A stretch of 64,000 nucleotides of DNA from Crambe crambe. Lineage: Eukaryota; Porifera; Demospongiae; Poecilosclerida; Crambeidae. Made by a program: the position numbers and the translations under genes. Location of the stretch: assembly GCA_963924555.1 (NCBI GenBank), contig OZ004584.1, positions 4,835,001 to 4,899,000 on the forward strand. Reading direction: 5' to 3'. The notes beneath the pieces were generated by a model. It was not told the DNA's origin and made no database searches. It worked only from the letters and a program-made list of their open reading frames with translations. Position 1 is the first letter of the stretch. Every line of letters starts with the position of its first letter. This document shows positions 17,580 to 63,620 of the stretch, piece by piece.

Positions 17580-18534
17580 CTACTGCACATAAAGCTGGAG
17601 TAGTTGGATAGGTGTATCTTCATTATCACCAATATGGCAGATCCTGACCTCAAGGTCATCAGTGGTGGACCGGGGGAGAGTCTTGCAGAACCACGGAGGG
17701 TGGTTGAACTGGCAGCAGGTGCTGGAGTGACCACATCCATGGGCATCCCAGAGAGGATCATTGGAGTAAAATGTATGTGGTCCAAAAGTATTTGCACGGT
17801 TTCCGGAATCACAGAAGTAGTCATTTCCTACAAAAGCTGTTGAATATGGCCAGGAAATGTTATTACTGCAGGGGCACAACCATACTTGATTATAGTTATC
17901 TGTTTCTCCTACAGCACTTGCAAATGTCCAGATATGCTGTTGAGAACCTACACGGCCATGAGTCAGAGAGACACCATCGACATACGGTCCATCAATTATT
18001 ACAGAGGAAGTCAGTCCATGAAAGGCATCAGTTGTACCATCTTGATAAGCAATGACGCGTCCACACACACGACTGTATGTCAACCCAAAGGTGGAATAGA
18101 ACACTGAATTGCAACCTCTTCTGCTGGTCCTTCCCCTCCCACATGTCCTCACAGGAGAAGAGATGGTGGTCCAGTTGCTGGGACAGACCTGATTGGGGTC
18201 TGACATATCAAGGAAGGCCACTCTAGCCCACCCACTTGGTCCATCACAACCACACTGCCTGTTGAAGTCACAGTATATCTGCACAGCAGGTGGGCCAGTG
18301 CTGGGAAGTATCCAGTAGTAACCAGAAGGACTGTTTGAGACCAATGCTTTGCAGGAACTAGCAGGGTTGTCTTCAGTGAGGCCATGATTGAAAATTTAGT
18401 ACATTTATGGCATTAGTGACTTGTGATTGAGAAGGACAAGTACCATCAGGTCCACTTGTTAAGGCCTTGACTGGAACTATTTGCTGTGCAGTGCACAACT
18501 GCAAAGTAAGGAAGAGAACTGCAGTGAATATCAT
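17580..18534 (-). CDS. Secreted fibrinogen-like Cys-rich protein of the receptor family
   Basis: Exon 1 (18444-18534) encodes a signal peptide, MIFTAVLFLTLQLCTAQ. A 73-nt intron (18371-18443) has GTAC donor, CTGAAG acceptor and a TACTAA branch-like motif. Exon 2 (17580-18370) encodes the C-terminal domain. Joined, the protein is about 293 residues. The domain shows SCKALVSNSPSGYYWI, VQIYCDFNRQCGCDGPSGW, FVGNDYFCDSGN, DPLWD and TTDDLEVRIC, as in the membrane-bound paralogues, but the tail, TM helix and coiled-coil stalk are absent. Without the intron the two parts are in different frames, so splicing (or a frameshift) must be assumed. It may be a soluble ligand or decoy version of the receptors; that is inference. 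Confidence 0.75.
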
Positions 18535-19640
18535 GGTTGTCTTATTTCTCCACAATCGTACACAACTCGTCTTTTTTGGAATTCAAATCTTCAGGTGATT
18601 GTCCTTTTTATAGAGTATTGGGATATACTGCATTCTTTGTCTGGATTTTGGTATTTCAGAAATGCTTTAATTAATGCATCCATAGACTTCTATTTATAAT
18701 CATATAGCTAATGAATTTTATTCCTACAGCTACACCACAAAAATTTTGCTTGTAATAACAATAAGTAAATACACATAAAACAATAATGTGAGTGATAGCT
18801 TCGTACCCAGGCCCACCTTTTTTGCTGGGCGGTGGAAAAGCTAGAGGGCCTGGTATCAATTGCATGCACATATGCTCCATTGAACATGTAATAATACATA
18901 AATCTCATGCATGGTGAATGAGGTAATCATCAAAAACGTATGTAGCATGTGTGCATTCAATCAGCTTAGCTCCAGCTAGCTAGATCTGGCTCCAGACCAG
19001 TGAAATATGGTCAAAAACAAAAGTCAAGACATGATACTTTGATAGCAACGACTCTTCTCGTCTAGCCGGTTGGTAGCGACACAAAGCACATTACTTCTTT
19101 CATAAACAGCTTGCACAGAACGCTTCTGAGAATGAGGCAAGTTGAATCTAATGCAGAAAGTCTTGCAAAAGAAAACGGGCCTGGGTATGAGGCTAACATG
19201 GAACCGTGTCCTAGAATGGGCCTATATTTTTTGTATGCAGCTACCATGCTCACAATAACCAGTAAGTCTGGAATGGGTGTGATACCCATAGGAAAACAGA
19301 GAACAACTGACTTTTTATGTTGTTTAGCACATAAAAGAAGTGTGTGTAGCATGAAAAGTAGCAGCAGTGCGTGGGTGGGGTATGGATAGCTGTATAAGTG
19401 GAGTGGTTTTAATTTTATAAGTTCTTGAAGTCACTTGCACCCATCTTTTGGTATGCATTATTTCAGTCTACAGTCTACACCAAAGGTGTACATTAACTAA
19501 TCATCACAAGAAATTTTTTTACCAAGCCCAAAATCCTAGGTTTATATCATGTATCAAGGAATGAGCATCCTCCATACTTCTGCGTTTTTCAAATGATTGG
19601 ATGATGAGGAAGGTTGATATAGCTAACAAATTCTGACTAT
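18535..19640. other. Repeat-rich spacer, no gene seen
   Basis: Contains a short dispersed element (about 18805-18865, ACCCAGGCCC ... GGGCCTGGTA, an inverted pair) that recurs with G-runs near 29110-29190 and 29490-29550, and as a fragment near 19176. Other ORFs look incidental. Confidence 0.5.
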
Positions 19641-20095
19641 GATTAATACATAGTTTAGTGTGGCTTCGAGGGTCTATGTGATTTATCACCTTTGCCCTTG
19701 GACTACACCCTCGGGCTTAGGTTGGGAAGATTTGCTATACAAATTTTAGCCCTAGTGCTATCATTGTCCGTTGATATAACAGCGTCTCTATTCCCATCGC
19801 TCAAGGAGCATCTTCCACACCTCTGCGTTTTGCCATGCAAATTTTAGCCCTAGTGCTATCATTGTCCGTTGATATAGCAGCGTCTCTATTCCCCATCGCT
19901 CAAGGAGCATCCTCCACACCTCTGCGGTTTTCAAATAATTGGGAAGATTTGTTATACAAATTCTGGCCCTAGTGCTATCATTGTCCGTTGATATAACAGC
20001 GTCTCTATTTCCCATCGCTCAAGGAGCATCCTCAACACCTCTGCGTTTTTCGAATAATTGGGAAGATTTGTTATACAAATTCTGGCCCTAGTGCT
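19640..20095. repeat. 119-bp satellite array, left part
   Basis: Degenerate then regular copies of a unit containing TATAACAGCGTCTCTATTCC, CACACCTCTGCGTTTTTC and GGGAAGATTTGTTATACAAA. The array is interrupted at 20096 by a 1,048-bp insertion and resumes at 21144 in the middle of the same unit. Confidence 0.85.
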
Positions 20096-21143
20096 ATGTA
20101 GGGATGACGCAGACGGCCGCGCGCACCACCCACCTATAGACTAATACAAAAGTGAAATTCTAGTTCCCCCACTTCGACCTAACAAAAGCTACTGTGAATG
20201 ATTATCTAGCCTACTAGAGCCTACTACAATGTGCAGACCAAGTTTCAGGACCAGGGAGCTTACCGTTTCAGAAATACGGCAAGCAGGTAAATCGCTGGAT
20301 TCTTCTTCTTCTCTATTATTATTATTCTTCTTCTTCTTCTTCTTCTTAGACAACCATATCTCTCGAACCACTCAAGCTACAGCTATGATTTCTGGATAAA
20401 TCAACTCCAAATTCTACGAACTACGATCTTTTCTACTCGTTGATCCTCGAAAGAGTCGATAAAAAAGGAGACACTACGGAGCACAGCACTCGACTAATTC
20501 AATTAGGAAGCCATCTTTTCTATAATACGCATGCGCATGTATTTGATATCCAATTATTCGAAATTATAATATTACTCAGCTGTCTCTAGCTAGCTAGCTA
20601 GCTCTAGATAATGATGATAGACTACTGTATCGACTCGGGGATTTAGATTCACCATGGTAGACTCTATTTCAGCATCTTCGACCTCCAAGTATAGCTCAAC
20701 AATAACACAACACCTTGACTCCTGATAAATATGATTGGGCTGCTGTGCTATTCTTCTTTCATCTGTCCCTGCATAGAAGAATGAAGTCTTATGCATAGCT
20801 AAAACCATAAAAGAGAGGAAAAAAAGACCAGGAACAAGTAAGGGAAATTTTTTTTCGTGAAATGAAAAAAGATGTAGGGATGACCACTGCTCAAAAAAGT
20901 AAGGAAACAAGAAGGATGGAAATGGGATCAATCTTTGTTCTGTATATCCAGCCAACAATCCCTACATATACGTTGGGTAGCTTCAGATTATAGTGTAGTA
21001 ATGTACGTATATGTAGGGATTGTTGGCTGGATATACAGAACAAAGATTGACCCCATTTCCATCCTTCTTGTTTCCTTACTTTTTTGAGCAGTGGTCATCC
21101 CTACATCTTTTTTCATTTCACGAAATGCTTTTTCCCTTACTTG
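20096..21143. mobile_element. Composite structured element, copy 1 (inserted in the satellite)
   Basis: Begins ATGTAGGGATGAC within a satellite unit. The body has AAGTTTCAGGACCAGGGAGC and ATATCTCTCGAACCACTC. It ends with a foldback (20835-21143) whose outermost ends are CAAGTAAGGG and CCCTTACTTG. Each foldback arm is itself bounded by ATGTAGGGAT and ATCCCTACAT. ORFs inside are by-products of the foldback. No transposase was found, so it is non-autonomous. Confidence 0.75.
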
Positions 21144-21690
21144 TTATAACAGCGTCTCTATTCCCATTGCTCAAGGAGCATCCTCCACACCGCTGCGTTT
21201 TTTAAATAATTGGGAAGATTTGCCATACAAATTCTGGCCCTAGTGCTATCATTGTCTGTTGATATAACAGCGTCTCTATTCCCCATCGCTCAAGGAGCAT
21301 CCTCAACACCTCTGCGTTTTTCAAATAATTGGGAAGATTTGTTATACAAATTCTGGCCCAGTGCTATCATTGTCCGTTGATATAACAGCGTCTCTATTCC
21401 CCATCGCTCAAGGAGCATCCTCCACACCTCTGCGTTTTTCAAATAATTGGGAAGATTTGTTATACAAATTCTGGCCCTAGTGCTATCATTGTCCGTTGAT
21501 ATAACAGCGTCTCTATTCCCCATCGCTCAAGGAGCATCCTCCACACCTCTGCGTTTTTCAAATAATTGGGAAGATTTGTTATACAAATTCTGGCCCTAGT
21601 GCTATCATTGTCCATTGATATAACAGTGCTGTATTTCCCATTGCTCAAGAAGTACCCTCCACACCTCTGCTTTTTTTCAAATGATTAGAT
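21144..21690. repeat. 119-bp satellite array, right part
   Basis: About four and a half regular units; TATAACAGCG starts at 21381 and 21500, 119 bp apart. Further degenerate units trail to about 22520 (ACACATCTGCAT and similar). Confidence 0.85.
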
Positions 21691-23029
21691 GATGAGAAGG
21701 TTGATATAACCAATTCTTGCCCTAGTGCCATTGATATGAACAAAATCCATCCCTCAAGAAGTATCCTCTGCATTTTTCATATATATGGATTAGATGCTGT
21801 ACATGTCCATTAATGTGACAGTGTCTCTATTTCCCATCCCTTAAGAAGAAGTATTTATATTGTCCATAGTTCTGCATTTCCAAATGATTGGGTGTTGAAA
21901 TAACAATTTCTATAGTAATCATCACATGTCCATAGTGCCTTTATTATCTTCCACGTCCAGGGATTCATACAGGGTGGGGGGAGCCATGGAATATCCCCCC
22001 CTCCCCCCCCCCCCCCCCCCCCAAAAAAAAAAGAAAAAGAAAAAAGAAGAAAGATCTTCCCACCTAAATATATATAAGGCATTATATAGTTAGATTGCTG
22101 GGTGATTATAATTATCTTTGTGCAAGGTCAGATACATAATCACACCCTTCTCCATACAGACCCATTTCAAAGCAGATAGCTAATATGATCACGAAACTAT
22201 GGCAATAATGGTAATGGGCATGGGGAAAATTTTTTGGCGTTATCCCCCAACCTCAAAAATCCTATATGAATCCCTGACACCTCTACAATTAATGGATGAT
22301 AAGATGGCTTATATACGGCTATATATGACAGTGTCAAGAAAGAGTATTCTCCACACATCTGCATGGATGAGGATTATAGCCTCATGCCTTGGCTCCTGCC
22401 CCCACATAATTTAGAACCTGAGTAGGAGGTTAGGATGATGATAAGGTTATTGATGTGACAGTATGGATTAATAAGAAGAATATATCCTCCACACATCTGC
22501 ATCAGTAATCTCTTCGTATACTGGCTAGCAGCTATGGTTAGGCTTAGTTACAGTAGGTCTCACAGTAGTACTTTGACAGTGGATCTAACTCTGTAACCCC
22601 TTGGATGATGATCCAGTTGAGTGGCTGGTTCAAACCTTTCAGATAAAAGTATATTTAATCATACAAGATGATGTCATAGCACGTGCTTGCATAAATTGTA
22701 GATGATGTGCTTGCATAAATTGTAGATGATGTCATAGTATGTCATACTTCGTAGACACAATCTAAGAAGTTTGGTAAGGGTTGTCACCAATGCTGGCACT
22801 TGATTAATTTTTCTATTTGGTATATAATTTTGTTTGTTGTTATAAAATTATTTGTTTGTTGTTGTCATTTTTTGTTATTTACGAGAACAAAAAGCTAAAC
22901 AACAGAACCTCTAACATGCATCATATTTCTAATCAAGAAATGAAGATTACAGTAGGCACTGATAAACTATAATGATATGATTCAAAATCACTGGCTTACA
23001 CTATAAGCACACTAATCTTATCATTAAGT
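21691..23029. other. Degenerate repeat spacer, no gene seen
   Basis: Decayed satellite units, a poly-C tract next to poly-A (about 21995-22032) inside a foldback with ends AGGGATTCATACA / ATGAATCCCTG, and AT-rich sequence. Positions 22900-23340 are an inverted duplicate of about 32700-33230. Confidence 0.5.
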
Positions 23030-24687: not shown

Positions 24688-25943
24688 CTAATGAACATAA
24701 ATCTTTAAAAGTCGGATAGGTATATCTTCATCAATACCATCTTTACAGATCCTGACCTCCAGGTCATCAGTGGTGGACTGGGGGAGAGTCTTGCAGAACC
24801 ATGGAGGGTTGTTGAACTGGCAGCAGGTGCTGGAGGTACCACATCCCTGGCCATCCCAGAGAGGGTCACCAGAGTAGAAAGTAGTTGCAGAATACACGCC
24901 GTCATGGTTTCCAGAATCACAGAAGAAATCGTTTCCCACAAAAGATGTTTGCTGTATAGAGTTATTACGACTATGCATGCACAAATTGAAGATTCGTATG
25001 CTGCATTGACAAAAGACCAGATGTGGTGTCGAGATCCAACACTTCCATGAGTGAAAGAGACACCATCAATATAGCTTCCATCAATTAGACTAGAACATGA
25101 GGAGTAACCATTAGGACCGCCATATTGATAAGCTATTATATGTCCACATACATGACTATAGGTCATCCCATAAGTGGAATAGAACGCTGAATTGCAGCCA
25201 CAAGTACTTCTCAGTCCCCTCCCACATGTCCTCACAGGGGAAGAGATGGTGGTCCAGTTGCTGGGACAGACCTGATTGGGATCTGACATGTCGAGGAAGG
25301 CCACACGAGTCCACTCACTTGGTCCATCACAGCCACACTGCCTGTTGAAGTCACAGTACACATGTACAGCAGAGCCATTGGAGGACCTGATCCAGTAGTA
25401 ACCTGATGGGGAGGAAGAATTCAACTGCAAGACAAGGGAACATGAATCAGCCGGAAGATTCGAGTATTGTCCAGTCAGTGATTGAATGATATTATTTAGT
25501 TTTAAATCTAATGACGTCGAAATATTACTCTGAATATCATTGCGATTATTTTCAATTATCTGAAGTTGTGTTAGTCTTCTTTCAAGTTCAGAACTTTCAC
25601 TTGCAGAATTTTGGAGCTCCATTATCTGTTGAGATATATTATCCTGAAGCTCCATTATCTTTTTTTGAAAGTCATTCTGCTTCATTTCAAGTTGGGAGCA
25701 ACTAGAATTTGCTTTTGAGATACTCCACAGGGAAATTCCCATGCTAATAAATGCTGCACTACCTACTAGGATGAATCCAACTAGTGAAATAGTGCCACAA
25801 GCAGGCATTTTATGCTTGGATTTAACTTGACGAGAATTTTCAGCTTGAATTTTAGATCTTAGAACGACTCCATAGCAGGGATTCTTGTTCAATGATGTAG
25901 CTTCTTTCTCCCCTACTATCTCATAGTTACTTTCTGCTTCCAT
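24688..25943 (-). pseudogene. Type II receptor of the NPxY/fibrinogen-like family, frameshifted
   Basis: The ORF opens with ATG at 25943. The cytoplasmic tail has YEIV (7-10) and NPCY (21-24). The signal-anchor helix is at about 51-74 (LVGFILVGSAAFISMGISLW), followed by a coiled-coil stalk and the domain start with YYWIRSSNGSAVHVYCDFNR. After AAYESSICAC the frame changes near 24975; in the other frame the domain continues as TSFVGNDFFCDSGN, DPLWDGQGC, PPWFCKTLPQ and ends at 24688. The two frames together match intact paralogues end to end, so a single small indel breaks the gene. A sequencing error or recent null allele is possible. Confidence 0.8.
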
Positions 25944-25959
25944 AGTTCAGAAAAAAAAG

Positions 25960-26654
25960 TGTTTCAAATCGATAGCTGCTATGTCCACAATTGTTACTTA
26001 CTGTATGACTAAGAAATTCACCATGAGACGTACAAAATATATAGTAGCTATGATATTTTAAAGTAGTATGAGGTAAACTATTGTTATGAACAACAATGCA
26101 TGAACAATCATGATTACAAGTACAAACTGTTTATGTATTATTGTTTATTTTGTTATAGTTCATGTGTTATTGTGTAACATTTCATGTCCAGAGTAATCAA
26201 AAATAACTTTTTTCAAGCAGCTGGCCATATGGCCCCAACCACTTCAAGGTTTGGTTGGCAAAGTTGGGTGGCCATAAAGCAAAAACATTTAAAAGCATTT
26301 TAAACACATCTAGGCAAATCAGGAGTAGAAGAGAAGTATTCTGGTGTTGTTATGAAACTACACTCACTGCGTGCTTTTTTCTCCCATTCACGCATGGTTG
26401 CTAGGGAGGTGTAACTCTTGATGATCATCATAGATTCTGATAATTGATGGATATTGTTAAGTGAGCTTATACATGAGTTCCTAGCCAGGCTCCATGCAGG
26501 AGATTGCGAACACTGCTCCTACTAGACCAGGTGTGGTGACCGCTTGCAGCAGCAACATGATTTGCGTTTTGCATGGTATCATGCATGTGCTCATCAGTGA
26601 AGATGGTCCCTTAATCATTATAGTCCAGGATGATATGACTCCTGATGGATATTA
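25960..26654. other. Upstream flank of the 24688-25943 gene
   Basis: AT-rich. From about 26480 it is a copy of the flank sequence seen at 23150-23300 (GCATGTGCTCATCAGTGAAG). The 19-bp palindrome found upstream of most - strand paralogues was not seen here. Confidence 0.4.
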
Positions 26655-27956
26655 TCAGAGAGTGCGGTAGCACTCTCTATGTAGGGATGACTCGGACGGC
26701 CGCGCGCGCCGCCTATAGACTAATACTAAAGTGAAATTCTAGTTCCCCCACTTAGACCTAACAAAAGCTACTGTGAATGATTATCCAGCCTACTAGAGCC
26801 TACTACAATGTGCAGACCGAGTTTCAGGACCAGGGAGCTTACCGTTTCAGAAATACGGCAAGCAGGTAAATCGCTGGATTCTCTATCAGAGAGTGCGGTA
26901 GCATATGTAGGGATGACGCGGACGGCCGCGCGCGCCGCCTATAGACTAATACTAAAGTGAAATTCTAGTTCCCCCACTTAGACCTAACAAAAGCTACTGT
27001 GAATGATTATCCAGCCTACTAGAGCCTACTACAATGTGCAGACCAAGTTTCAGGACCAGGGAGCTTACCGTTTCAGAAATACGGCAAACAGGTAAATCGC
27101 TGGATTCTTCTTCTCTATTATTATTATTATTATTATTATTCTTAGATAACCATATCTCTCGAACCACTCAAGCTACAACTATGATTTCTGGATAAATCCA
27201 CTCCAAATTCTACGAACTACGATCTTTTCTACTCGTTGATCCTCGAAAGAGTCGATGAAAAAGGAAACACTACGGACCACAGCATGCACTCGACTAATTC
27301 AATTAGGAAGCCATCTTTTCTATAATACGCATGCGCATGTATTTGATATCCAATTATTAAAAATTATAATATTACTCAGCTGTCTCTAGCTAGCTAGCTC
27401 TAGCTTTGGATAATGATGATGATAGACTACTGTATCGATTCGGGGATTTAGATTCACTACGGTAGACTCTATTTCAGCATCTTCGACCTCCAAGTATGGC
27501 TCAACAATAACACAACACCTTGACTCGATAATGATTGGGCTGGTATGCTATTGGAGAACTATTGGAGAACTTTCATCTGTCCCTGCATACACATAGAAGA
27601 ATGAACTCTAATCATAACTAAAACCATAAAAGAGAGGAAAAAAGACCAGGAACAAGTAAGGGAAAAAGCATTTCGTGAAATGAAAAAAAGATGTAGGGAT
27701 GACCACTGCTCAAAAAAGTAAGGAAACAAGAAGGATGGAAATGGGATCAATCTTTGTTCTGTATATCCAGCCAACAATCCCTACATATACGTCGGGTAAC
27801 TTCAGATTTTAGTGTAGTAATGTACGTATATGTAGGGATTGTTGGCTGGATATACAGAACAAAGATTGATCCCATTTCCATCCTTCTTGTTTCCTTACTT
27901 TTTTGAGCAGTGGTCATCCCTACATCTTTTTTTCATTTCACGAAATGCTTTTACCC
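26655..27956. mobile_element. Composite structured element, copy 2, with TTA target duplication
   Basis: The paralogous empty site at 23269-23285 reads GGATATTATATATAGTG. Here GGATATTA precedes the element and TTATATATAGTG follows it, so TTA is duplicated. The element starts TCAGAGAGTGC with a hairpin (AGAGAGTGC-N4-GCACTCTCT type) next to ATGTAGGGATGAC. Its first 229 bp are repeated in tandem (26884 onward). A body with ATTATT and CTCGAACCACTC follows. It ends in a foldback (27653-27956) of the same family as 20835-21143. No coding gene. Confidence 0.8.
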
Positions 27957-28009
27957 TTATATATAGTGTACTTTGAACCATGCAGCTGTTGTTTGTTGTC
28001 GTGATGTTC

Positions 28010-48577: not shown

Positions 48578-48662
48578 TAGTATGGAAATGCAAGCATTGT
48601 GGGGGTGATCACACATGCTTGGTCGTCATCTGCAATGTTAGAATGTATGAAGCATATTATTA

Positions 48663-49464: not shown

Positions 49465-49496
49465 CCCTACATAGAGAGTGCTACCGCACTCTCTGA
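49465..49496 (-). repeat. TCAGAGAGTGC hairpin module
   Basis: CCCTACAT followed by AGAGAGTGC-TACC-GCACTCTCT and GA. This is the reverse complement of the start module at 26655 and 34434, here directly beside another foldback. Also at about 56094-56123. Confidence 0.8.
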
Positions 49497-49497
49497 T

Positions 49498-49746: not shown

Positions 49747-49860
49747 TAGCATTATGACATCACACAGAAATCACGAAGCATACTACTTAACCTTACATTT
49801 ATATTGACATAGGAGGTAAAAGTTTATTTCACAATGTTGACTGGTAAAAGTAAACAAAGT

Positions 49861-49890
49861 GGGATCTTTTTTTTTTTTTTTTTTTTTTTT
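49861..49890. repeat. Poly-T tract
   Basis: A run of T just downstream of a receptor pseudogene's stop. It is shorter in duplication copy B (about 56568-56584). Confidence 0.85.
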
Positions 49891-49926
49891 GGTAGCTATG
49901 TTATACTCCAAAGTCAAAAGACATGA

Positions 49927-50465: not shown

Positions 50466-51230
50466 ACCAACATCACACAGAAATCATGAAGCATACTACT
50501 TACATACTATATGGACATAGGAAATAAAAGTCTGTTTCATAATGTTGTATGAAATGACTGGTAAAATAATATATAGACAAAGTGAATTTTTTTCCCAAGC
50601 ATAGCCGACATACCAAGTAGAGCAGCATGCAGCACGAGCTTATTCATACATTATTCATTAAAATAATAAGTTATAGGGTAGGGTATGAAGGTCTAGTAGT
50701 GCTAGTGGAGGGGGCAGTGGTGGAGGTGCAGTACGAATGATGATGTGTTGTGGTGGCAAGGGGAAGTTAAGTGGTATGGCATGATTCGACCTGCACAAAA
50801 TTTATTTAATATGATTAGGCTCAGATGGATGGCCTACAAGAAGAGGTAAACTAGTTTATCACAGTAAAATTTATTACCCTCAGAGATCGCAGTGCCCTCC
50901 AGAACAGCCTATGGAGTAACCCTCACTGGCACCAGTGCCCTTGGGCCTGCCTGTGTTCTTAGATTGTATGGTAAAAGATCATCGACACAGTGACGGTAGT
51001 ACATTGATGTGCAGTCCAAAACAAAGTAGAGTTAGGCGCTCTAGCTAAGTTAATAGCATGGAGAAGGATGAGAGATCCATGATGGCAGTGAAGCTCTGTG
51101 GTACGCAGAGAAGAAACACGCTTTGATTATTTATCATATTACATTACATATTTCTTTTTTGCTTGGTATGTAATTATGTAATTTTTTGTAGCTATATGAT
51201 ACTTATAAGGTCCAAAATCAAAAGACATGG
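50466..51230. other. Spacer, no gene seen
   Basis: Corresponds to 57640-58357 in copy B (GTAGAGCAGCATGCAGCA, GGTAGGGTATGAAGG). No coding motif was recognised. Confidence 0.5.
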
Positions 51231-52697: not shown

Positions 52698-52892
52698 AGC
52701 TCTGTAAAGTAACTAGCTACTCACGTTTAAAAGCAGTTATCCAGTCAATAGTTAGTACTCCAGGTTCCTATGAGTCACACTTAAATGATACATTCATTTT
52801 TCACACCAAGAAATCACCATGGCAATGATGAAACTACTTCTATTTGTGGATCTCACTAAACATCTGCAATTCCCACTTAGTTCAAAACAGGC

Positions 52893-52911
52893 TACCTATC
52901 ATTGGCAGGTA
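52893..52911 (-). promoter_or_regulatory. 19-bp palindrome upstream of the 52697 start
   Basis: TACCTATCATTGGCAGGTA, about 196 bp upstream of the ATG. CCAGTCAATAG lies between them near 52741. Confidence 0.62.
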
Positions 52912-53551
52912 TTTGAAGTTGAATTTATTTCTTTCAAGTTTGCATAATACTAAAGCATTGAAAAGTGGCAAATAAGGAGTATTAGCTACTCATGCATACA
53001 TGCATACATGCATGCGCAGGGCGCTACTCATGACATGTATGACATACATACGTATGCCTTGTGCCTTTTGGAGTGTAGATATATGTCTACAATTTCATGA
53101 CCTGAGAGCCAGCTTGCTCGCTGCACTCGCTTTGTTATCACAATGTTATTACAGTTTCCTGATGTGGATGGACTATTCTATCATTCAAAACATGCACATC
53201 AATTGATTATCTTCATTGTTATTTTTAAATGCGTAAGTACTAAATTTCAGCAGTTTTGCTGGCCCTTGGATGTTATTTTTTGTCCTATTATATTGGTGGT
53301 TATTAATTTTTGGTCCTTAATATTTAGTACAGCCCTTAAAAAAAATTTTTTTATCTTGGTGCTTCATATGCCATATAGTTATAACACCTTAGTAGTTTAA
53401 AGGTTACTTCAAGCACTTTTCAGGTGCGATAATATTTAAAGTTTGATCACTAATAATAGGTACAATAAATATATTTAAATGATGGACAACTTGTATAGTA
53501 ATTATGTAGCCTACACTATTTCAGTATCAAGGTTAGAGTCAAAGTGCATTG

Positions 53552-55096
53552 TTACTGCACATACAGCTCTACTAGCTGAACAGGTGTGTCTTCATCATTT
53601 CCACCATGGCAGATCCTGACCTCCAGGTCATCAGTGGTGGACTGAGGGAGGGTCTTGCAGAACCATGGAGGGGTGTTGAACTGACAGCAGGTGCTGGAGC
53701 GATCGCATCCCTGGCCATCCCAGAGAGGGTCTCTGGAGTACAATTTATTGCGGATATAGTAAGTGGCATGATTTCCAGAATCGCAGAAGTAGTCATTTCC
53801 AACAAAAGATGTGTTATATGGCCAGTTATTGTTATTACTGCAATCACATACATATCTCGCACCAAAATTCGTTGCTTCTCCTAAAGTACTAGTAAAGGAC
53901 CAGATATGCTGTCGAGATCCAACACTGCCATGAGTCAGGGAAACGCCATCAACATACTGCTTGTCAATGTTTCGTTGGAGGCTGACTAATCCTTGAAAGC
54001 CATCTGTTGTGGACTGTTGATAACCTATTATACGTCCACACACACGACTATAGGTCATTCCAAAAGTGGAATGGAACACTGAATTGCAACCTGTAATGGT
54101 GGTCTTTTCCCTTGAGCATCTCCTCACTTTGTTGGAGAAGATAGTCCAGTTTTTGGGGCAAACTTGGTTGGGATCTGACATGTTGAGGAAGGCCACACGA
54201 GTCCACGTACTTGGTCCATCACAACCACACTGCCTGTTGAAGTCACAGTACACGTATACAGCAGAGCCATTGGAGGACCTGATCCAGTAGTGATCTGATG
54301 GGGAGGAGGGATTCAACAGCAAAACATGATAACATGAATCATATTGTTTAGTCTGAATAATTGTGTTTATTTTCGAACTGAAAGACCTTGAAGCTTTACG
54401 TAGGTCATAAACAGCATCTGCAGTATTCTGAAGCTGTGCTATTTTTAATTCGAGTTTTGGTATACCACCACTAACATTTTTAAGCTCCATAATCTGCTCA
54501 TATATATTATTTACAGATGCCTTAAGTTTCATAATTTCTTCTGATAGATTATTTTTAGAAGCCTGAAGTTTCATAATCTTTTCAGATATATCACGTTTTG
54601 AAGCCTGAAACTCCATATAATGCTCAGATATATTATTCATAAGCTCCATAAAATTTTCAGATATGTTATTTTTAAAAGCTGGAAACTCCTTAATCTGCTC
54701 AGTATTAGAAGCCTGAAACTCAAGTTTGGAAATGCTCAAACTGATTCGTGATATAGTCCACAATGAAATACCCATGCTAACTAATGCTGCACTACCTACT
54801 AAAATGAATCCAACTAGTAATATTGAGCGACCAAAAGCAGCTTTTTTAAACTTCGACTGAGTTTGTTTTCGATTTTCAGATGACAACATTCCTTGAGTTG
54901 AACACATTTCATAATCAGGATTTTCAGTTGCAGGTTTACTTTCAGTTTTGATCTTCAATGAGACTTCTTTGCTTGGAGGAGATTCAGGCGATTCAGGCAC
55001 ACTTTCAAGTCCAAACTTCGAAGCAGCTGGGTGGAATGGATTCCTAATCATAGCTTCTCTTTCCTGTATCTCTTCATAGATTCCTTCACCTTCCAT
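53552..55096 (-). CDS. Type II receptor, intact, 514 aa
   Basis: Copy B partner of 46939-48474. Start chosen at ATG 55096 (MEGEGIYEE) by paralogue alignment; upstream in-frame Met codons exist. The tail has YEEI (7-10), NPFH (19-22) and NPDY (about 59-62). Helix at about 91-113. The stalk is three residues longer than its partner (KEFPAFKNNIS against KAFKNNIS). The domain has the variable segment HATYYIRNKLYSR before DPLWDGQGCDRSSTCC. No disruption found. Confidence 0.88.
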   Translation of the reverse strand: MEGEGIYEEIQEREAMIRNPFHPAASKFGLESVPESPESPPSKEVSLKIKTESKPATENPDYEMCSTQGMLSSENRKQTQSKFKKAAFGRSILLVGFILVGSAALVSMGISLWTISRISLSISKLEFQASNTEQIKEFPAFKNNISENFMELMNNISEHYMEFQASKRDISEKIMKLQASKNNLSEEIMKLKASVNNIYEQIMELKNVSGGIPKLELKIAQLQNTADAVYDLRKASRSFSSKINTIIQTKQYDSCYHVLLLNPSSPSDHYWIRSSNGSAVYVYCDFNRQCGCDGPSTWTRVAFLNMSDPNQVCPKNWTIFSNKVRRCSREKTTITGCNSVFHSTFGMTYSRVCGRIIGYQQSTTDGFQGLVSLQRNIDKQYVDGVSLTHGSVGSRQHIWSFTSTLGEATNFGARYVCDCSNNNNWPYNTSFVGNDYFCDSGNHATYYIRNKLYSRDPLWDGQGCDRSSTCCQFNTPPWFCKTLPQSTTDDLEVRICHGGNDEDTPVQLVELYVQ

Positions 55097-55180
55097 AACT
55101 GCTATATTGTAGCTTCTCTTGTCCATCGATCTATGTGGTGACAATCTTTATCAAAATAAGTGAATAAGTGTCACTTCAAA

Positions 55181-55199
55181 TACTTGTAAATTACAGGTA
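55181..55199 (-). promoter_or_regulatory. 19-bp palindrome upstream of the 55096 start
   Basis: TACTTGTAAATTACAGGTA, identical to copy A, 85 bp upstream of the ATG. Confidence 0.6.
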
Positions 55200-55284
55200 T
55201 AGTATGGAAATGCAAGCATTGTGGGGGTGATCACACATGCTTGGTCGTCATCTGCAATGTTAGAATGTATGAAGCATATTATTA

Positions 55285-55589
55285 CAAGTGAAAGGAAAAA
55301 AATTTATGCTAAATAAAAAGGCCATGTAGGGTTAGTCTGTACTTTAACAGTTTCTGTCAACAAAAATCAAAATTATGCTGCCTTCAATAATAATCCCTAC
55401 ATCACTGCCTCCCACCAAGCTGCTTTAATTGTTCATGTCAGTATAAAAGTGTTCTGCTTGGTTTAGGCAGTGATGTAGGGATTATTATTGAAGGCAGCAT
55501 AATTTTGATTTTTGTTGACAGAAACTGTTAAAGTACAGACTAACCCTACATGGCCTTTTTATTTAGCATAATTTTTTTCCTTTCACTTG
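55285..55589. mobile_element. Foldback element, second family (copy B)
   Basis: Duplicate of 48663-48967, same 305-bp length and ends. Confidence 0.85.
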
Positions 55590-56093
55590 TTTGTTTACTT
55601 TTTGTACGACCTTCAGGTTAAATATTGTTTTCAAGTAAAAATAGCTGGTTGGCACGCGTGCACGTGATAGTGACAGACGTGCGTGCATGACAAATGATGT
55701 CATTTTTTAATGGCTGACATAGTTATAATGAAAAGTCATTCGATATGAGTGATTATTTTGAAGGGAAACTGTGGATATAACGATGGTAAAAGCACATTGT
55801 GTGGTTATAACTGCACAAGTTGATATGAATTTCATTGTCATATGTGAAAGAATCATGGAGTTACAGCTGTCAAAGAAGATGATGAACGAATCATAAAAAT
55901 TTTAAATTTAGGCAGGGGCTGGTGCCGATCGTTAACACTGTTCTGGAGGAGTTTGAGTGGTCATATCATCATCTTCTGCATTGTTTCCAGATGTAAGAAG
56001 TTTAGTTGAGCCTGTAGCAAGAATAGAAGAGATACAGAGAGTCTAGTTTGTATTGTTCTAATGAGAGAAACCACGCCCATTCCGTACTAACCC

Positions 56094-56446
56094 TACATAG
56101 AGAGTGCTACCGCACTCTCTGATAAAGGAAAAATATTTATTCTAAATAAAAAAGAAAATTAGGGATCGCTGTGTGCAGTTCAAAAAAGTTTAGCAACAAG
56201 AGAGTGAACTTCAGTCAAGTAACCCCTTACCCATCACCAATAGTACCAAACTATGAGCTAACTGTTCCTACTTCATTCCATGGCAGGCCAAGATGAAATA
56301 TAAAGGGAACGAAGTAGGAATTGTAGTTTGGTAATATCGGTGATGGGTAAGGGTCTACTTGACTGAAGTTCACTCTCTTGTTGCTGAACTTTTTGAACCG
56401 CACACAGCCGTCCCTACTTTTTTCTTTTTTATTTAGAATAAATATA
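56094..56446. mobile_element. Hairpin module plus third-family foldback (copy B)
   Basis: Same structure as 49465-49746. The loop has about 80 extra bases (CCAAACTATGAGCTAACTG ... AAGGGAACGAAGTAGG). Copy A retains only the right edge (GTAGGAATTGTAGTTTGG), so copy A has probably lost it. Confidence 0.8.
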
Positions 56447-56620
56447 TTAGCATTATGACATCACACAGAAATCACGAAGCATACTACTTAACCTTACATT
56501 TATATTGACATAGGAGGTAAAAGTTTATTTCACAATGTTGACTGGTAAAAGTAAACAAAGTGGGATCTTTTTTTTTTTTTTTTTGGTAGCTATATTATAC
56601 TCCAAAGTCAAAAGACATGA

Positions 56621-57510
56621 CTATTGCACATAGAGCTCTACTAGTTGAACAGGTGCGTCTTCATCATTTCCATCACGGCAGATCCTGACCTCCAGGTCAT
56701 CAGTGGTGGACTGAGGGAGGGTCTTGCAGAACCACGGAGGGTTGTTGAACTGGCAGCATGTGCTGGAGTGAAGACACCCTTTGCCATCCCAGAGAGGATT
56801 ATCAGTGTAGAATATACTGTGGGAAAATCCACTTGCACGATTACCAGAATCACAAAAGTAATCATTACCAACGAAAGGTATGTTATGCGGCCAGTTATTG
56901 TTGTTACTGCAATCACATACACTTTCTGTTTGAAAACCAGATGTTTGTCCCGGGGCACTAGCAAATGACTGGATGTGCTGTCGAGATCCCACACTGCCAT
57001 GAGTCAGGGAGACACCATCAATATGCTGTTTGTCAATAGATCGTTCCTTGGTTAGTGCATCGGTAGTTGCCTCTTGATAACCTATTATACGTCCACACAC
57101 ACGACTATAGGTCATTCCAAAAGTGGAATAGAACACTGAATTACAACCTGTACTGCTTGTCTGTCCCCTCGAACACGTCTTTACAGGGGAGGAGCGGATA
57201 GTCCAATCTTTGGGACAGACCTGATTGGGGTCTGACATGTTGAGGAAGGCCACATGAGTCCACCTACTTGGTCCATCACAGCCACACTGCCTGTTGAAGT
57301 CACAGTACACACACACAGCAGAGCCATTGGAGGACCTGATCCAGTAGTGACCTGATGGGGAGGAGGGATTCACCAGGAAGACATAGGAATGCGAACCATA
57401 TTGTTCACTCTCAATTATTTCTTTCAGTTTTGCATCAAAAGACCTTGAAACATTCTTTAGTGACATCAACTGAATCTTGAAGCCTTTTAATATTTTCTTT
57501 AAGATTCGAT
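56621..57510 (-). pseudogene. 5'-truncated receptor
   Basis: Domain intact in frame to LYVQ, but the N-terminal tail and TM are missing. The stalk start NLKENIKRLQDSVDVTKE goes out of frame through an 11-bp deletion (CATTCTTTAGTGACATC against CATTACTTAGTTCTTC...). The first domain Cys is lost (GSHSYVFLVN). FQGL is deleted after TTDA. It then joins a foldback right arm at about 57525. A possible sequence donor for its neighbour at 58358. Confidence 0.85.
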
Positions 57511-57524
57511 ATGTTCGATATGTT

Positions 57525-57640
57525 CTGGATATACAGAACAAAGATCGATTCCATTTCCATCCTTCTTGCTTCCTTATTTTTTTGAGCAGTGGTCATCCCT
57601 ACATCTTTTTTCATTTCATGAAATGTTTTTTCCCTTATTA
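57525..57640. mobile_element. Right arm of a first-family foldback
   Basis: TGGATATACAGAACAAAGAT through GTCATCCCTACATC to TTTTTTCCCTTA. Only the right arm is present, and it truncates the pseudogene at 56621. Confidence 0.75.
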
Positions 57641-58357
57641 AATGACTGGATTTTTTCCAAGCGTAGCCGACATACCAAGTAGAGCAGCATGCAGCACATG
57701 TTATTTTGTGCTTATTTCATTAAGTTGTATAGGGTAGGGTATGAAGGTTTAGTAGTGCTAGTGGAGGGGGAAGTGGTGGAGGTGCAGTACGAATGATAAT
57801 GTGTTGTGGTGGAGGAAGTTGTGGCAAGGGGAAGTTAAGTGGTATGGCATGATTCTACCTGCATGCACAAAATTAATTAGGCTCAGATGGATGGCCTACA
57901 AGAAGAGGTAAACTAGTTTATCACAGTAAAATTTATTACCCTCAGAGATCACAGTGCCCTCCAGAACAGCCTATGGAGTAACCCTCACTGGCACCAGTGT
58001 GCCCTTGGGCCTACATCCAGAATTGCCTACTGGCAGTCTCATCTCTGTCAGCTTGCCGCTACAGAACTCTGCTTGCATGTGTTCTTAGATTGTATGGTAA
58101 AAGATCGTCGACATGGAGACGATAGTACATTGATGTGCAGTCCAAAACAAAGTAGAGTTAGGCGTTCTAGCTAAGTTAATAGCATGGAGAAGGACGAGAG
58201 ATCTGCGAAACTCTGTGGTATGCAGAGAAGAAACATGCTTTGATTATTTATTTATTTAGATTATATTACATTACTTTTTTGCTTGATATATAATTACTTT
58301 GTATGCAATTTTTGGTAGCTATATGATACTTATAAGGTCCAAAGTCAAAAGACATGG
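57641..58357. other. Spacer, no gene seen
   Basis: Counterpart of 50466-51230 with small insertions. Confidence 0.5.
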
Positions 58358-59815
58358 TCACTGCACATACAACTCTACTAGTTGAACAGGTGTGTCTTCA
58401 TCATTTCCATCATGGCAGATCCTGACCTCCAGGTCATCAGTGATGGACTGAGGAAGGGTCTTGCAGAACCATGGAGGGTTGTTGAACTGGCAGCATGTGC
58501 TGGAGTGAAGACACCCTTTGCCATCCCAGAGAGGATTATCAGTGTAGAATATACTGTGGGAAAATTCACTTGCACGATTACCAGAATCACAGAAGTAATC
58601 ATTACCAACGAAAGATAAGTTATACACCCAGTTATTGTTGTTACTGCAATCGCATACGCTTACTGCTTGAAGACCAGATGTTTGTCCCAGAGCACTAGCA
58701 AATGACCAGATGTGCTGTCGAGACCCCACACTGCCATGAGTCAGGGAGACACCATCAACATACTGTCTATCAATGGATCGTTCATTGAATAGTCCTTGAA
58801 ATGCATCAGTTGTTGACCATTGATAACCTATTATGCGTCCACACACACGACTAAAGGTCATTCCAAAAGTGGAATAGAACACTGAATTACAACCTGTACT
58901 GCTTGTCTGTCCCCTCGAACACGTCCTTACAGGGGAAGAGCGGATAGTCCAATCTTTGGGACAGACCTGATTGGGGTCTGACATGTTGAGGAAAGCCACA
59001 CGAGTCCACGTACTTGGTCCATCACAACCACACTGCCTGTTGAAGTCGCAGTACACACGTACAGCAGAGCCATTGGAGGACCTGATCCAGTAGTGACCTG
59101 ATGGGGAGGGGGGATTCACCAGCGAGGCATGAGAACACGAATCATATTGTTTACTGTTGATTATTTCTTTTAGTTTTGCATCAAAAGACCTTGAAACATT
59201 ACTTAGTTCTTCTTTGGTGACATCAACTGAATCTTGAAGCCTTTTAATATTTTCTTTAAGATTTGATATATAACCACTGGTATTTTTAAGCTCCATTATC
59301 TGATCGGATAAATAGTTTTTTTGCATTATCTGCATAGATGTAGAAGCTTGAAGTGCCACGATCTGCTCAGATATATTATTTTTAGTAGCCTGGAACTCAG
59401 TTATTTTGGAGATGCTTAAACTGACCCGTGAAATAGTCCACAATGAAATACCCATGCTGACAATTGCTACACTGCCTACTAAGATGATTCCAACCAGTAA
59501 TATTGAGCGACCAAAAGCAGCTTTTTTATACTTAGACTGAGTTGGGAGAGGATTTTTAGACGTAGCCACATAATTTGATTCGAAGTTCGAAGGGGTTTCA
59601 CAATTATTTTGAAGAGAATTTTCAGATACAGGCACACTTTGAAATTCGAATCCAGAAGGGGCTTGGTAGCAGGGATTCTCATCCAAAAACATAGCTTCCC
59701 TGGACATATATACACTTTCGAGTTCGAATTTTGGAGGGGCCTGGTAGCAGGGATTCTTGTCCAAAAGCACAGCTTCCTTTCCCTCTATCATTTGATAAAC
59801 AGTATTGCCTTCCAT
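58358..59815 (-). CDS. Type II receptor, intact, 485 aa
   Basis: Copy B partner of 51231-52697: same tail with two NPCY motifs, same helix, stalk three residues shorter (SMQIMQKNYLSDQ). In the domain, RASEFSHSIFYTDNPLWDGK replaces RASGFSNKFYSDNPLWDGN. At DNA level this tract (about 58512-58566) matches the pseudogenes at 56621 and 49927 almost exactly, while the flanks match 51231. A mosaic gene, frame intact. Confidence 0.88.
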   Translation of the reverse strand: MEGNTVYQMIEGKEAVLLDKNPCYQAPPKFELESVYMSREAMFLDENPCYQAPSGFEFQSVPVSENSLQNNCETPSNFESNYVATSKNPLPTQSKYKKAAFGRSILLVGIILVGSVAIVSMGISLWTISRVSLSISKITEFQATKNNISEQIVALQASTSMQIMQKNYLSDQIMELKNTSGYISNLKENIKRLQDSVDVTKEELSNVSRSFDAKLKEIINSKQYDSCSHASLVNPPSPSGHYWIRSSNGSAVRVYCDFNRQCGCDGPSTWTRVAFLNMSDPNQVCPKDWTIRSSPVRTCSRGQTSSTGCNSVFYSTFGMTFSRVCGRIIGYQWSTTDAFQGLFNERSIDRQYVDGVSLTHGSVGSRQHIWSFASALGQTSGLQAVSVCDCSNNNNWVYNLSFVGNDYFCDSGNRASEFSHSIFYTDNPLWDGKGCLHSSTCCQFNNPPWFCKTLPQSITDDLEVRICHDGNDEDTPVQLVELYVQ

Positions 59816-60010
59816 AGCTCTGTAAAGTAACTAGCTACTCACGTTTAAAAGCAGTTATCCAGTCAATAGTTAGTACTCCAGGTTCCTATGAGTCACACTT
59901 AAATGATACATTCATTTTTCACACCAAGAAATCACCATGGCAATGATGAAACTACTTCTATTGGTGGATCTCACTAAACATCTGCAATTCCCACTTAGTT
60001 CAAAACAGGC

Positions 60011-60029
60011 TACCTATCATTGGCAGGTA
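60011..60029 (-). promoter_or_regulatory. 19-bp palindrome upstream of the 59815 start
   Basis: TACCTATCATTGGCAGGTA, identical to copy A, about 196 bp upstream of the ATG. Confidence 0.62.
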
Positions 60030-60304
60030 TTTGAAGTTGAATTTATTTCTTTCAAGTTTGCATAATACTAAAGCATTGAAAAGTGGCAAATAAGGAGTAT
60101 TAGCTACTCATGCATACATGCATACATGCATGCGCAGGGCGCTACTCATGACATGTATGACATACATACGTATGCCTTGTGCCTTTTGGAGTGTAGATAT
60201 ATGTCTACAATTTCATGACCTGAGAGCCAGCTTGCTCGCTGCACTCGCTTTATTATCACAATGTTATTACAGTTTCCTGATGTGGATGGACTATTCTATC
60301 ATTC

Positions 60305-61240: not shown

Positions 61241-63052
61241 TCACTGCACATACAGCTCTACTAGCTGAACAGGTGTGTCTTCATGATTTGCATCATTGCA
61301 GATCCTGATCTCTAGGTCATCAGTGGTGGGCTGGGGGAGGGTCTTGCAGAACCATGGAGGGTTATTGAACTGGCAGCAGGTACTAGTGCGATCGCATCCC
61401 TGGCCATCCCAGAGAGGGTCGCTGAAGAAAAAACCACTCCTAGGATCTCCATTTCCATGAAAACCGGAGTCACAAAAATAATCATTTCCAACAAAAGATG
61501 TGTTATATGGCCAGTTATTGTTATTACTGCAATCACATACGTATCTTGCTTTAAATCGAGTTGCTTCTCCTATGGCACTAACAAATGACCAGATATGCTG
61601 TCGAGACCCCACACTGCCATGAGTCAGGGACACACCATCAACATACTGTCCATCAATAGAGAGTCCATGTGTGACTAACTCTTGAAAGCCATCAGTTGTA
61701 GCCATTTGATAACCAATTATGCGTCCACATACACGACTATATGTTAGTCCAAAAGTGGAATAGAACACTGAATCACAACCTTTGCCAATTTTTTTCCTTG
61801 AACATCTCACTGGAGTAGAGAAGATTGTCCAGTTTCTTGGACAGACCTGGTTAGGGTCTGACATATCGAGGAAAGCCACACGAGTCCATGTACTTGGTCC
61901 ATCACAACCACACTGCCTGTTGAAGTCACAGTACACACGTACAGCAGAGCCATTGGAGGACCTGATCCAGTAGTGACTTGATGGAGAGGAGGGATTCAAC
62001 TGCAAGACATGGGAACACGAATCGTATTGTTCATTCTTGATTAATTTGTTTAGTTTTGAATCCAAAGACCTTGAAATGTTGCTTAGTTGTTTATTGATGA
62101 CATGTACAGAATTTCGGATATTTGTTATTTTTTCATCACTTGCATTCTTAAGCTTCATAATTATTTTATCATGTAAATTATTGTTCGATATCTGGAACTC
62201 CTTAATTTGTATGGAGATATTATTGTTATAAGCTTGAAGTCCCATAATCTGCTCAGATTTATTATTATTAGAAGCCTGTAATCCAATAATTTCTTTTGAT
62301 ATATTATTTTTAGAAGCCTTAAATTTCATAATCTGCTCAGACATCTTATGCTTTGAAACCTGAAACTCCATATAATGCTCAGATATATTATTAATAAGCT
62401 CCATAATCTGCTCGGACATATTATTTTTAAAGGCCTGAAACTCCATTGCCTGCTTAGCTTTTGAAGCATAAAACTCGGTCGTTATCATTTCGAGTTTCAA
62501 AATGCTCAAACTGACTCGTGAAACAGCCCACAATGAAATGCTCATGCTTACAAATGCTGCACTACCAACTAAGATGAATCCAACCAGCAAGATTGAGCAG
62601 CCACAGACAGATTTTTTATATTTAGACTTAGTTTGGCAAGCATTATCAGATGAAAGCATACCTTCCTGCGGTTTCAACTTTGAAGGAATTTTATTGCGAT
62701 CAGCAGATGCAAGAAAACTGTCAAACTTTGAAGGAGCTTCATAGCTGGGATTGTCAGCGGCAGACGCACTTTCAGGATTGAGTTTTAAAGGGATTTCATA
62801 GCTCTCAGGTTCGAACCTAGAAGGATTTTTGCTGCGATATTCAGATGCAAGAAGATGGTCACCTAGAGGTTCAAACTTTGAAGGAACTTCGTAGCTGGGA
62901 TTGTCAGATCCAGGCACACTTTCAGGTTTGAGTTTCAAAGGGATTTCATTTATAGATTGAGCAAGTTCATTCTTTGAAGGAGTTCGGTAGAATGGATTCT
63001 TAAGCATAGCTTCTCTTCCTTCTATCACTGCATAGATTTTTTCATCTTCCAT
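61241..63052 (-). CDS. Type II receptor, intact, 603 aa (longest member)
   Basis: The tail of about 150 residues has YAVI (7-10), NPFY (19-22), NPSY (51-54), NPSY (101-104) and SYEIPLKL, with repeated PSKFEP-type blocks. Helix at about 152-176 (SILLVGFILVGSAAFVSMSI). The stalk is the longest, with at least five 14-residue units such as FKASKNNISKEIIG and LQASNNNKSEQIMG, most carrying an N-x-S sequon. The domain has the usual cysteines; the variable loop FHGNGDPRSGFFFS precedes DPLWDGQGC. ATG 63052 is supported by homology. Length differences between members come mainly from the number of tail blocks and stalk units. Confidence 0.9.
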   Translation of the reverse strand: MEDEKIYAVIEGREAMLKNPFYRTPSKNELAQSINEIPLKLKPESVPGSDNPSYEVPSKFEPLGDHLLASEYRSKNPSRFEPESYEIPLKLNPESASAADNPSYEAPSKFDSFLASADRNKIPSKLKPQEGMLSSDNACQTKSKYKKSVCGCSILLVGFILVGSAAFVSMSISLWAVSRVSLSILKLEMITTEFYASKAKQAMEFQAFKNNMSEQIMELINNISEHYMEFQVSKHKMSEQIMKFKASKNNISKEIIGLQASNNNKSEQIMGLQAYNNNISIQIKEFQISNNNLHDKIIMKLKNASDEKITNIRNSVHVINKQLSNISRSLDSKLNKLIKNEQYDSCSHVLQLNPSSPSSHYWIRSSNGSAVRVYCDFNRQCGCDGPSTWTRVAFLDMSDPNQVCPRNWTIFSTPVRCSRKKIGKGCDSVFYSTFGLTYSRVCGRIIGYQMATTDGFQELVTHGLSIDGQYVDGVSLTHGSVGSRQHIWSFVSAIGEATRFKARYVCDCSNNNNWPYNTSFVGNDYFCDSGFHGNGDPRSGFFFSDPLWDGQGCDRTSTCCQFNNPPWFCKTLPQPTTDDLEIRICNDANHEDTPVQLVELYVQ

Positions 63053-63144
63053 TGCTGCTGTAAGATTATGCTCTTTTCTTTGCTGTGTTCAGTCAATCTG
63101 TGCTGTGGTAATCTTTATCAAAATAAGTAGTGTCACTTCAAAAA

Positions 63145-63163
63145 TACCTGTCAATGACAGGTA
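63145..63163 (-). promoter_or_regulatory. 19-bp perfect palindrome upstream of the 63052 start
   Basis: TACCTGTCAATGACAGGTA is a perfect inverted repeat around a central A, 93 bp upstream of the ATG and preceded by GTCACTTCAAAAA. The best copy in the window. Confidence 0.7.
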
Positions 63164-63359
63164 TACGTATAATGTTGTTCAGTGTGAATTCACAGCTGTA
63201 ATAACAATATGACTAATGGTATGTGGCAGGAAGGCTCATGATGATTCTCTAATGCATGCATATGTTTACAATATTATAGCTATCTTCCAGTCGTGATTTA
63301 TGGCATATTGAAGCAGTGTCATCGCTGTAAAGTATATTCAATAATTTGTAAAAATCTTA

Positions 63360-63620
63360 AAGAGATCCAATTATACATCCACACATGCTATAAGTCTGTC
63401 TGACTGTGGGATAATTAAAACACACTGACGGTATTTTGTCCCTTACCACAAAGTCCGATGGTGGTCAAAAATACTGGGGAAGGCCACTCGAATCCACACA
63501 CTTTGGTTCATCACAATCACACTGCCTATTGAAGTCACAGTACGCATGCACAGCAGAGGAGGTAGCTGCAGTCAACTGTTGAATGCTAATAAGATTTATT
63601 TAATTTTGAAACTAGTGAGC
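63360..63620 (-). pseudogene. Receptor domain relic
   Basis: GCCACTCGAATCCACACACT, then GGTTCATCACAATCACACTG and CCTATTGAAGTCACAGTACG are the antisense of RVAFL..., CDCDEP and YCDFNRQ of the domain. ATTATACATCCACACATGCT matches the VCGRIIG region. Separated and frame-broken. Beyond it, to 64000, I see no gene. Confidence 0.65.

Follow-up and report, generated by a model that had tools for sequence, protein, structure and literature searches.

What kind of proteins are encoded by the tandemly arrayed genes at approximately 17.58-63.7 kb of the stretch of Crambe crambe DNA analysed here (the window, 64,000 nucleotides, C6:4,835,001-4,899,000), and what might they do for the sponge? The window belongs to a genome of 143,139,886 bases in 119 contigs, and its contig C6 has 9,083,326 bases, which fits chromosome 4 (9.08 Mb) as described in PMC12166358. 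In the mitochondrial contig of this genome, TGA is read as tryptophan in COX1. Our answer, to which we give about an even chance of being right, is that the genes encode lineage-expanded, oligomeric type II recognition receptors that signal through phosphotyrosine, and their phosphotyrosine tails probably also serve internalisation.

In the intact members a tail is followed by a single hydrophobic segment, then by a long stalk, and finally by a C-terminal Cys-rich domain, and pairwise similarity among the window copies extends over hundreds of residues. Six single-exon genes on the minus strand are open and each codes for this complete series. Two genes on the plus strand, with ATG codons at 30689 and 35715, attain the conserved end only when an intron is removed; the predicted GT..AG introns are 64 bp (31866-31929) and 56 bp (36901-36956) long, both with the acceptor TTATCCTCTTAG, although these positions are predictions because alternative GT..AG choices keep the frame too. 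An initial annotation, made from the sequence alone, had described a tandem receptor cluster with eight intact transmembrane members, one secreted member, and about nine broken copies. The tandem arrangement is borne out, the eight are found as the six open genes and the two with predicted splicing, and we count 17 copies in the window, nine of them broken (eight, plus the frame-shifted copy at 17580). The secreted member does not survive as such, since on the minus strand its domain (17580-18395) is frame-shifted relative to the signal-peptide frame (18403-18534), ruling out an intact secreted member within the window; an open secreted paralogue, L015, is located just outside. With an assembly quality value of 58.1 (PMC12166358), sequencing error is an improbable source of the frame shifts.

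Judged by sequence, the type II layout with an N-terminal tyrosine-motif tail is present in 66 of 78 C. crambe entries, each with the tail ahead of one hydrophobic segment, and 49 non-redundant tails remained after those more than 85% alike were dropped; motif counts in these 49 were compared with shuffles. The constant feature of these tails is a pair of tyrosines, the first in an acidic Yxx[V/I/L/P] motif near the N-terminus and the second in an N-x-[C/Q]-Y that in most cases follows 15-20 residues later. NxxY occurs in 39 tails (mean 7.2 and maximum 16 in 1000 shuffles), N[PS]xY in 31 (shuffled 1.5), and NPxY in 20 (shuffled 0.6), and YxN is present in six (shuffled 7.2). A tyrosine lies 10-20 residues upstream of the NxxY tyrosine in 31 tails (shuffled 0.9, maximum 6), and at least two acidic residues directly precede a Yxx[LIVMFP] located among the first 18 residues, again in 31 (shuffled 1.1, maximum 6). 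A form resembling the hemi-immunoreceptor tyrosine-based activation motif (hemITAM), with two or more acidic residues in the five before the tyrosine and a bulky hydrophobic residue at +3 within the first 18 residues, is seen in 22 tails (shuffled 0.9), this being a relaxed form and not the exact DEDGYxxL consensus. Motif units are repeated in several tails: NPCY occurs twice in the window genes at 51231 and 58358, and NPxY three times in that at 61241 and twice in L037, with NSQY present twice in L018. The tail of L078 (C6:7488300-7490380) contains TYSEV and TYSEI together with four tandem units bearing DNQVYSMG and TYSKL, a series of tyrosine motifs.

NPxY and NxxY recall the motifs bound by PTB and clathrin adaptors, and the initial annotation had described the tails as carrying NPxY. 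Tyrosine motifs of the PTB and clathrin type are indeed present, but NPxY does not hold as the general motif: it is found in five of the eight intact window tails and is one variant of N-x-[C/Q]-Y. NPFH and NLGY are found instead in the gene at 46939-48525, and FDNETY in both plus strand genes.

Type II relatives occur in other assemblies, with tails such as DDTVYAEINETGARKFSMDENVCYEGIK; all counts given for these assemblies are of protein sequences, not species. In a first motif test, 14 of 15 proteins gave tails, nine of them non-redundant, and all nine contain NxxY (shuffled 1.7) and none contains NPxY, so that strict NPxY is rejected as the defining motif; four have the relaxed hemITAM-like form (shuffled 0.1). 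A larger set used 25 of 30 proteins, with P0061, P0072, P0090, and P0092 excluded because their models start no earlier than the membrane or the stalk, and P0205 excluded as identical to the C. crambe gene L042 except for the first residue. Among the 15 non-redundant tails in this set, for which the motif helped to trim the tail starts, NxCY is present in all 15 and the first tyrosine in 13 (the other two models begin at MDEN), with a spacing between the two tyrosines of 19 in 11 tails and 20 in two. When these 15 were aligned with 16 C. crambe tails picked for motif presence, the asparagine and second tyrosine were conserved in all 31 rows, the first tyrosine in 29, and the cysteine in 27, and no other well-occupied position past the start methionine exceeded 65%.

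A midpoint-rooted tree of the core of the C-terminal domain, built from 104 cores (62 from C. crambe and 42 of 50 from other assemblies), has a clade of CDMTRSCGG-type receptors with a support of 0.98 that contains both C. crambe and other-assembly proteins. The remainder includes a C. crambe-only clade of 33 cores (0.74), to which the six intact minus strand window genes belong, and a clade of 19 cores solely from other assemblies (0.94). The two-tyrosine tail is present on both sides of this tree and therefore probably predates the expansions, with spread by tail swapping as the alternative.

Exchange of parts is itself evident from comparison of the C. crambe genes. The juxtamembrane and transmembrane part of L037 (42 residues) is 71% identical to that of L078, with the next best at 44%, whereas the L037 core shares 94% identity with L027 and 46% with L078. 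Likewise, L067 and L075 have transmembrane parts resembling the NPCY/NSQY group (66-74%) and cores resembling L078 (76-79%). Because the parts of these three genes match different partners, unrelated tails are carried by near-identical ectodomains, and recombination or gene conversion is the simplest cause of the swapping.

The ectodomain is not readily assigned to a known family. The initial annotation called it fibrinogen-like, but the genome's 81 matches to Pfam Fibrinogen_C (PF00147) include none in the window, and neither this family nor the C-type lectin domain is listed at E <= 1 for four window proteins, which attain no Pfam cut-off at all; membership in the fibrinogen domain family is accordingly rejected, and the likeness is limited to approximately the first 45 residues of the domain, which resemble fibrinogen and COLFI (PF01410), followed by a jelly-roll core. 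The 81 matches are a separate expansion of fibrinogen-related domains (FReD), many of them in tandem on C5 (989-1054 kb) and others on C1, C8, C9, C14, C16, C18, C19, and C21. In the same four proteins the COLFI match is weak (14.8-22.5 bits, below the 26.2-bit cut-off) and confined to the N-terminal 44-64 residues of the domain; among seven relatives, two pass (P0010 with 33.2 and P0106 with 42.5), two are just under the cut-off, and three have none. A Foldseek search with the whole domain returns procollagen C-propeptides as its top 11 matches and places FIBCD1 at rank 46 (probability 0.72, 115 alignment columns). However, in a separate search with the core alone no procollagen is among the 50 matches listed, and a family profile finds none in PDB sequences, so that plain COLFI membership is also rejected. 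A single-sequence search of the PDB gave a best match at chance level (E 0.67), and intelectin is not among the structure matches listed for domain or core, a listing that does not rule the intelectin fold out. The core is an independent module, because P0041, P0051, P0055, and P0059 from other assemblies carry two jelly-roll cores without a COLFI-type start. By these comparisons the domain is a short start of collagen-propeptide/fibrinogen type joined to a jelly-roll core for which no clear relative is evident among solved structures.

The window contains one part of a family that is very large and duplicating rapidly. With one window protein as query, 142 of 682 candidates genome-wide were scored as family places, 89 of them on C6 and the remainder on C1, C3, C5, C8, C10-C12, C15, C17, and C19-C21. 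Genome-wide there are 236 exact matches to the DNA pattern encoding DPLWDG, compared with eight to the reversed control, and this is an incomplete census because just seven window copies carry the exact motif. The cluster seems to extend beyond the window on both sides, with open reading frames (ORFs) of 449-496 amino acids, detected by their COLFI match, at C6:4,805,681-4,832,527 and family members at C6:4,901,252-4,940,587. The proposal of a lineage-specific surface-receptor cluster is supported by the C. crambe-only clade and with a 6.6-kb tandem duplication at 96-98% identity described below, and the family is multi-copy, not a set of ubiquitous single-copy orthologues.

The copies are, by codon comparison, under purifying selection: the ratio of nonsynonymous to synonymous divergence (dN/dS) is below 1 in all 24 independent pairs, very recent pairs included, with summed values of 0.37 for the core, 0.38 for the N-terminal part of the domain, 0.58 for the stalk, 0.54 for the tail, and 0.90 for the transmembrane segment. 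Variation between haplotypes is also suggested. P0003, from a separate assembly contig, is 96% identical to the window gene at 61241-63088 (602 and 603 residues, next best 70-74%) and is probably the other haplotype's version of it; P0002, P0009, and P0011 are 98.5, 97.6, and 94.2% identical to C. crambe genes in the set compared and may derive from the alternate haplotype as well. An alternate assembly of this genome has the accession GCA_963924525.1. P0006 has no match above 92% among the genes compared.

The sequences display the anatomy of the chains, their number of copies, the conservation of the tyrosine pair, the swapping of modules, and purifying selection; from these we infer surface display, oligomerisation, tail phosphorylation, tail partners, a ligand, and a purpose, be it recognition of microbe, food, symbiont, or self. 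In the mechanism that we favor, each chain would begin with a cytoplasmic tail, cross the membrane by a signal-anchor, continue into a stalk that carries N-glycosylation sites and through which the chains probably oligomerise, and end in a recognition domain. Ligand would cluster the receptors, tyrosine kinases would phosphorylate both conserved tail tyrosines, and SH2 and PTB proteins would dock at these, starting signalling and promoting uptake of whatever particle is bound. Meanwhile copies would be gained and lost, and tails exchanged, through duplication and recombination, giving a changing set of recognition surfaces with different outputs.

Several observations weigh against this reading. 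Ten of the 49 tails (those of L011, L020, L024, L039, L041-L043, L047, L058, and L063) have no NxxY, and in nine of 31, a large subgroup, the first motif ends in proline rather than a bulky hydrophobic residue. The pattern [VLIST]xYxx[LIV], of the immunoreceptor tyrosine-based inhibition motif (ITIM) type, is near shuffle level in C. crambe (10 of 49 compared with 6.4), and is found in six of the nine tails from other assemblies (shuffled 1.0). The spacing between the two tyrosines exceeds that of classical immunoreceptor tyrosine-based activation motifs, common ancestry raises the motif counts, and both the spacing test and that for the hemITAM-like form were devised after the tails had been seen. 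The tail, signal-anchor, and Cys-rich domain that the initial annotation described as shared are present, but its coiled coil has modest heptad support, with a mean stalk score of 0.78 (shuffled 0.67) and, for 12 of 63 stalks, a score matched by five or fewer of 100 of their own shuffles. There is likewise no sign of diversifying selection to bear out the initial annotation's tentative reading of the cluster as serving self/non-self or microbe recognition: no 20-residue window reaches a dN/dS of 1, although as a pairwise average this is a weak test, and we reject diversifying selection on the recognition surface as a candidate.

The same tails could serve clathrin sorting only, in receptors for endocytic scavenging or feeding, comparable to FIBCD1 or class A scavenger receptors, with which bacteria or debris would be digested and no signal passed. 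YxxPhi and NPxY/NxxY are textbook sorting motifs, YxxPhi is present in 33 of the 49 C. crambe tails, and sponges feed by phagocytosis; FIBCD1, an oligomeric receptor of type II that has a coiled coil and acts in endocytosis, offers a precedent (PMC10825690). We consider this possible but unlikely, as the YxxPhi excess is the weaker one (shuffled mean 20.5, maximum 31), YxxP, which is not an AP-2 signal, is found in 24 tails (shuffled 8.5), and sorting needs neither the near-fixed tyrosine spacing in other assemblies nor the exchange of unrelated tails. A role in adhesion or matrix assembly, in which the COLFI-like part would trimerise chains and anchor cells to collagen or to each other, with copy number reflecting allorecognition or tissue structure, could draw on the 11 leading procollagen matches, on the two of seven relatives above the COLFI cut-off, and on NxxY being known from adhesion-receptor tails too. 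Nevertheless the procollagen likeness is lost from the core search and from the family profile, the family lacks the DPNxGCxxDA stretch found in true sponge collagens, and we regard this role as improbable. That the locus is mostly non-functional debris of gene birth and death surrounding a few working genes would suit the nine broken copies among 17 and the recency of the duplicates, but is very hard to reconcile with dN/dS below 1 in every pair and with a tyrosine pair preserved across assemblies.

Several known systems resemble these proteins in part. The vertebrate natural killer (NK)-complex C-type lectin receptors are clustered type II proteins with N-terminal tyrosine-motif tails, a stalk, and one C-terminal recognition domain, and hemITAM receptors have a motif of the DEDGYxxL type, as described in PMC11624271 and PMC11484026 for the former and PMC11484026 for the latter. 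The sponge cluster has the same layout as the Dectin-1 cluster and KLR/Ly49 receptors, with copies that vary and with different tails attached to near-identical ectodomains, and the acidic residues ahead of the membrane-distal Yxx recall the hemITAM receptors as presented in those two papers. It differs in that no C-type lectin domain is listed for the window proteins, the motifs are acidic Yxx[V/I/L/P] and NxxY rather than DEDGYxxL or a strict ITIM, and the genes have one or two exons. Our best reading is that the sponge receptors may work like NK-complex lectin receptors without belonging to them. FIBCD1, as described in PMC10825690, shares the type II arrangement of tail, transmembrane segment, coiled-coil region, and C-terminal recognition domain, but has a true FReD, which the sponge domain resembles in its first part only. 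The fibrillar procollagen C-propeptide is likened by the weak N-terminal Pfam match and the best whole-domain structure matches, and set apart by the sub-threshold scores of the four window proteins, a core without preference for it, and the lack of a collagen triple helix.

Large candidate recognition gene sets of SRCR, NLR-type, GPCR, and FReD proteins are described in sponges, some of which respond to microbial cues (PMC6208332, PMC8242945). As those accounts present them, these repertoires were found largely by known Pfam domains, whereas the four window proteins scanned reach no Pfam cut-off, and surveys by known domains could therefore miss this receptor family even though it numbers well over 200 copies by exact motif. 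We found no description of it by title or opening lines in the open-access literature, which is not proof of its being unpublished. The family is a new form of the known class of clustered type II receptors of innate type, set apart by an outer domain that falls outside the usual families, and bears on how sponges distinguish food, symbiont, pathogen, and self at the cell surface. If near-identical ectodomains do exchange their tails, sponges would offer a non-vertebrate parallel to the paired-receptor principle known from vertebrate NK cells.

The conserved tyrosine pair also offers a short handle for phosphorylation and for SH2 and PTB partners. The genome has 135 matches to SH2 domains and eight to PTB (PID), and a Syk-family kinase is reported in the sponge Amphimedon queenslandica (PMC9601881). 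On C5, a tandem array at 1,417,826-1,522,148 (L093 and L094) contains 29 SH2 matches in 104 kb, in which SH2-SH2 ORFs adjoin Kelch ORFs, confirmed by Pfam for one unit (L094) and seen by eye in L093. We assume an SH2-SH2-Kelch architecture, provided that the ORFs are spliced, and hypothesise a link between this array and the receptor family. A more ambitious and rather doubtful extension is a sponge paired-receptor system, in which hundreds of type II receptors would have in common a recognition domain distinct from those of lectins, FReD proteins, and immunoglobulins, together with an ancestral tail whose two tyrosines stand at a near-fixed distance. Exchange of tails among near-identical ectodomains would connect a given recognition surface to alternative outputs, and co-expanded tandem-SH2 proteins, including those of the SH2-SH2-Kelch array, would read the tails, an NK-receptor-like logic of independent origin.

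The intact minus strand genes are situated in the upper part of the window. The gene at 44353-45933 (ORF of 526 amino acids, tail NPVY) encodes a product identical to P0001 (524 amino acids from its methionine), and that at 61241-63088 has an ORF of 615 amino acids (603 from the likely methionine) with YAVI, NPFY, NPSY, and NPSY in its tail. The other four lie within a tandem duplication at 46575-60304, whose 6.6-kb units (46575-53186 and 53186-60304) each contain two genes and one truncated copy and are 98.0, 96.2, and 96.5% identical across the three longest blocks. These genes are at 46939-48525 (528 amino acids; YEEI, NPFH, and NLGY), 51231-52712 (493 amino acids; YQMI and two NPCYQAP), 53552-55147 (531 amino acids; YEEI, NPFH, and NPDY), and 58358-59830 (490 amino acids), the last being 96% identical to the 51231 copy and the same as P0004 from its methionine; the 5'-truncated copies are at 49930-50457 and 56624-57592, both on the minus strand. 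On the plus strand, the predicted two-exon type II members span 30689-32192 (tail YAVV, YSKL, and FDNETYSMV) and 35715-37246, with exon 2 ends computed from products of 479 and 491 residues respectively, and are accompanied by a domain fragment at 32923-33151 and a 5'-truncated member of the same subgroup at 39024-40061. The remaining broken copies, all on the minus strand, are frame-shifted type II members at 24688-25946 (tail NYEIV...NPCY) and 41310-42844 (NPFY and NPNY), tail and domain fragments at 38019-38689, and fragments at 63366-63732.

Beside the cluster, a homologue of the conserved gene TMEM138 is present on the minus strand at 12380-12874 of the window (PF14935, 138.6 bits), and a 443-amino-acid open frame that contains several hydrophobic stretches and matches no Pfam family at E <= 0.01 is found at 9183-10514, also on the minus strand. 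Interspersed repeats with approximately 86-99% identity occur at 19722-21728, 26653-27961, 35064-35381, 40602-40771, 48662-48968, and 55284-55590, and some of these are self-inverted across approximately 300 bp in the manner of miniature inverted-repeat transposable elements.

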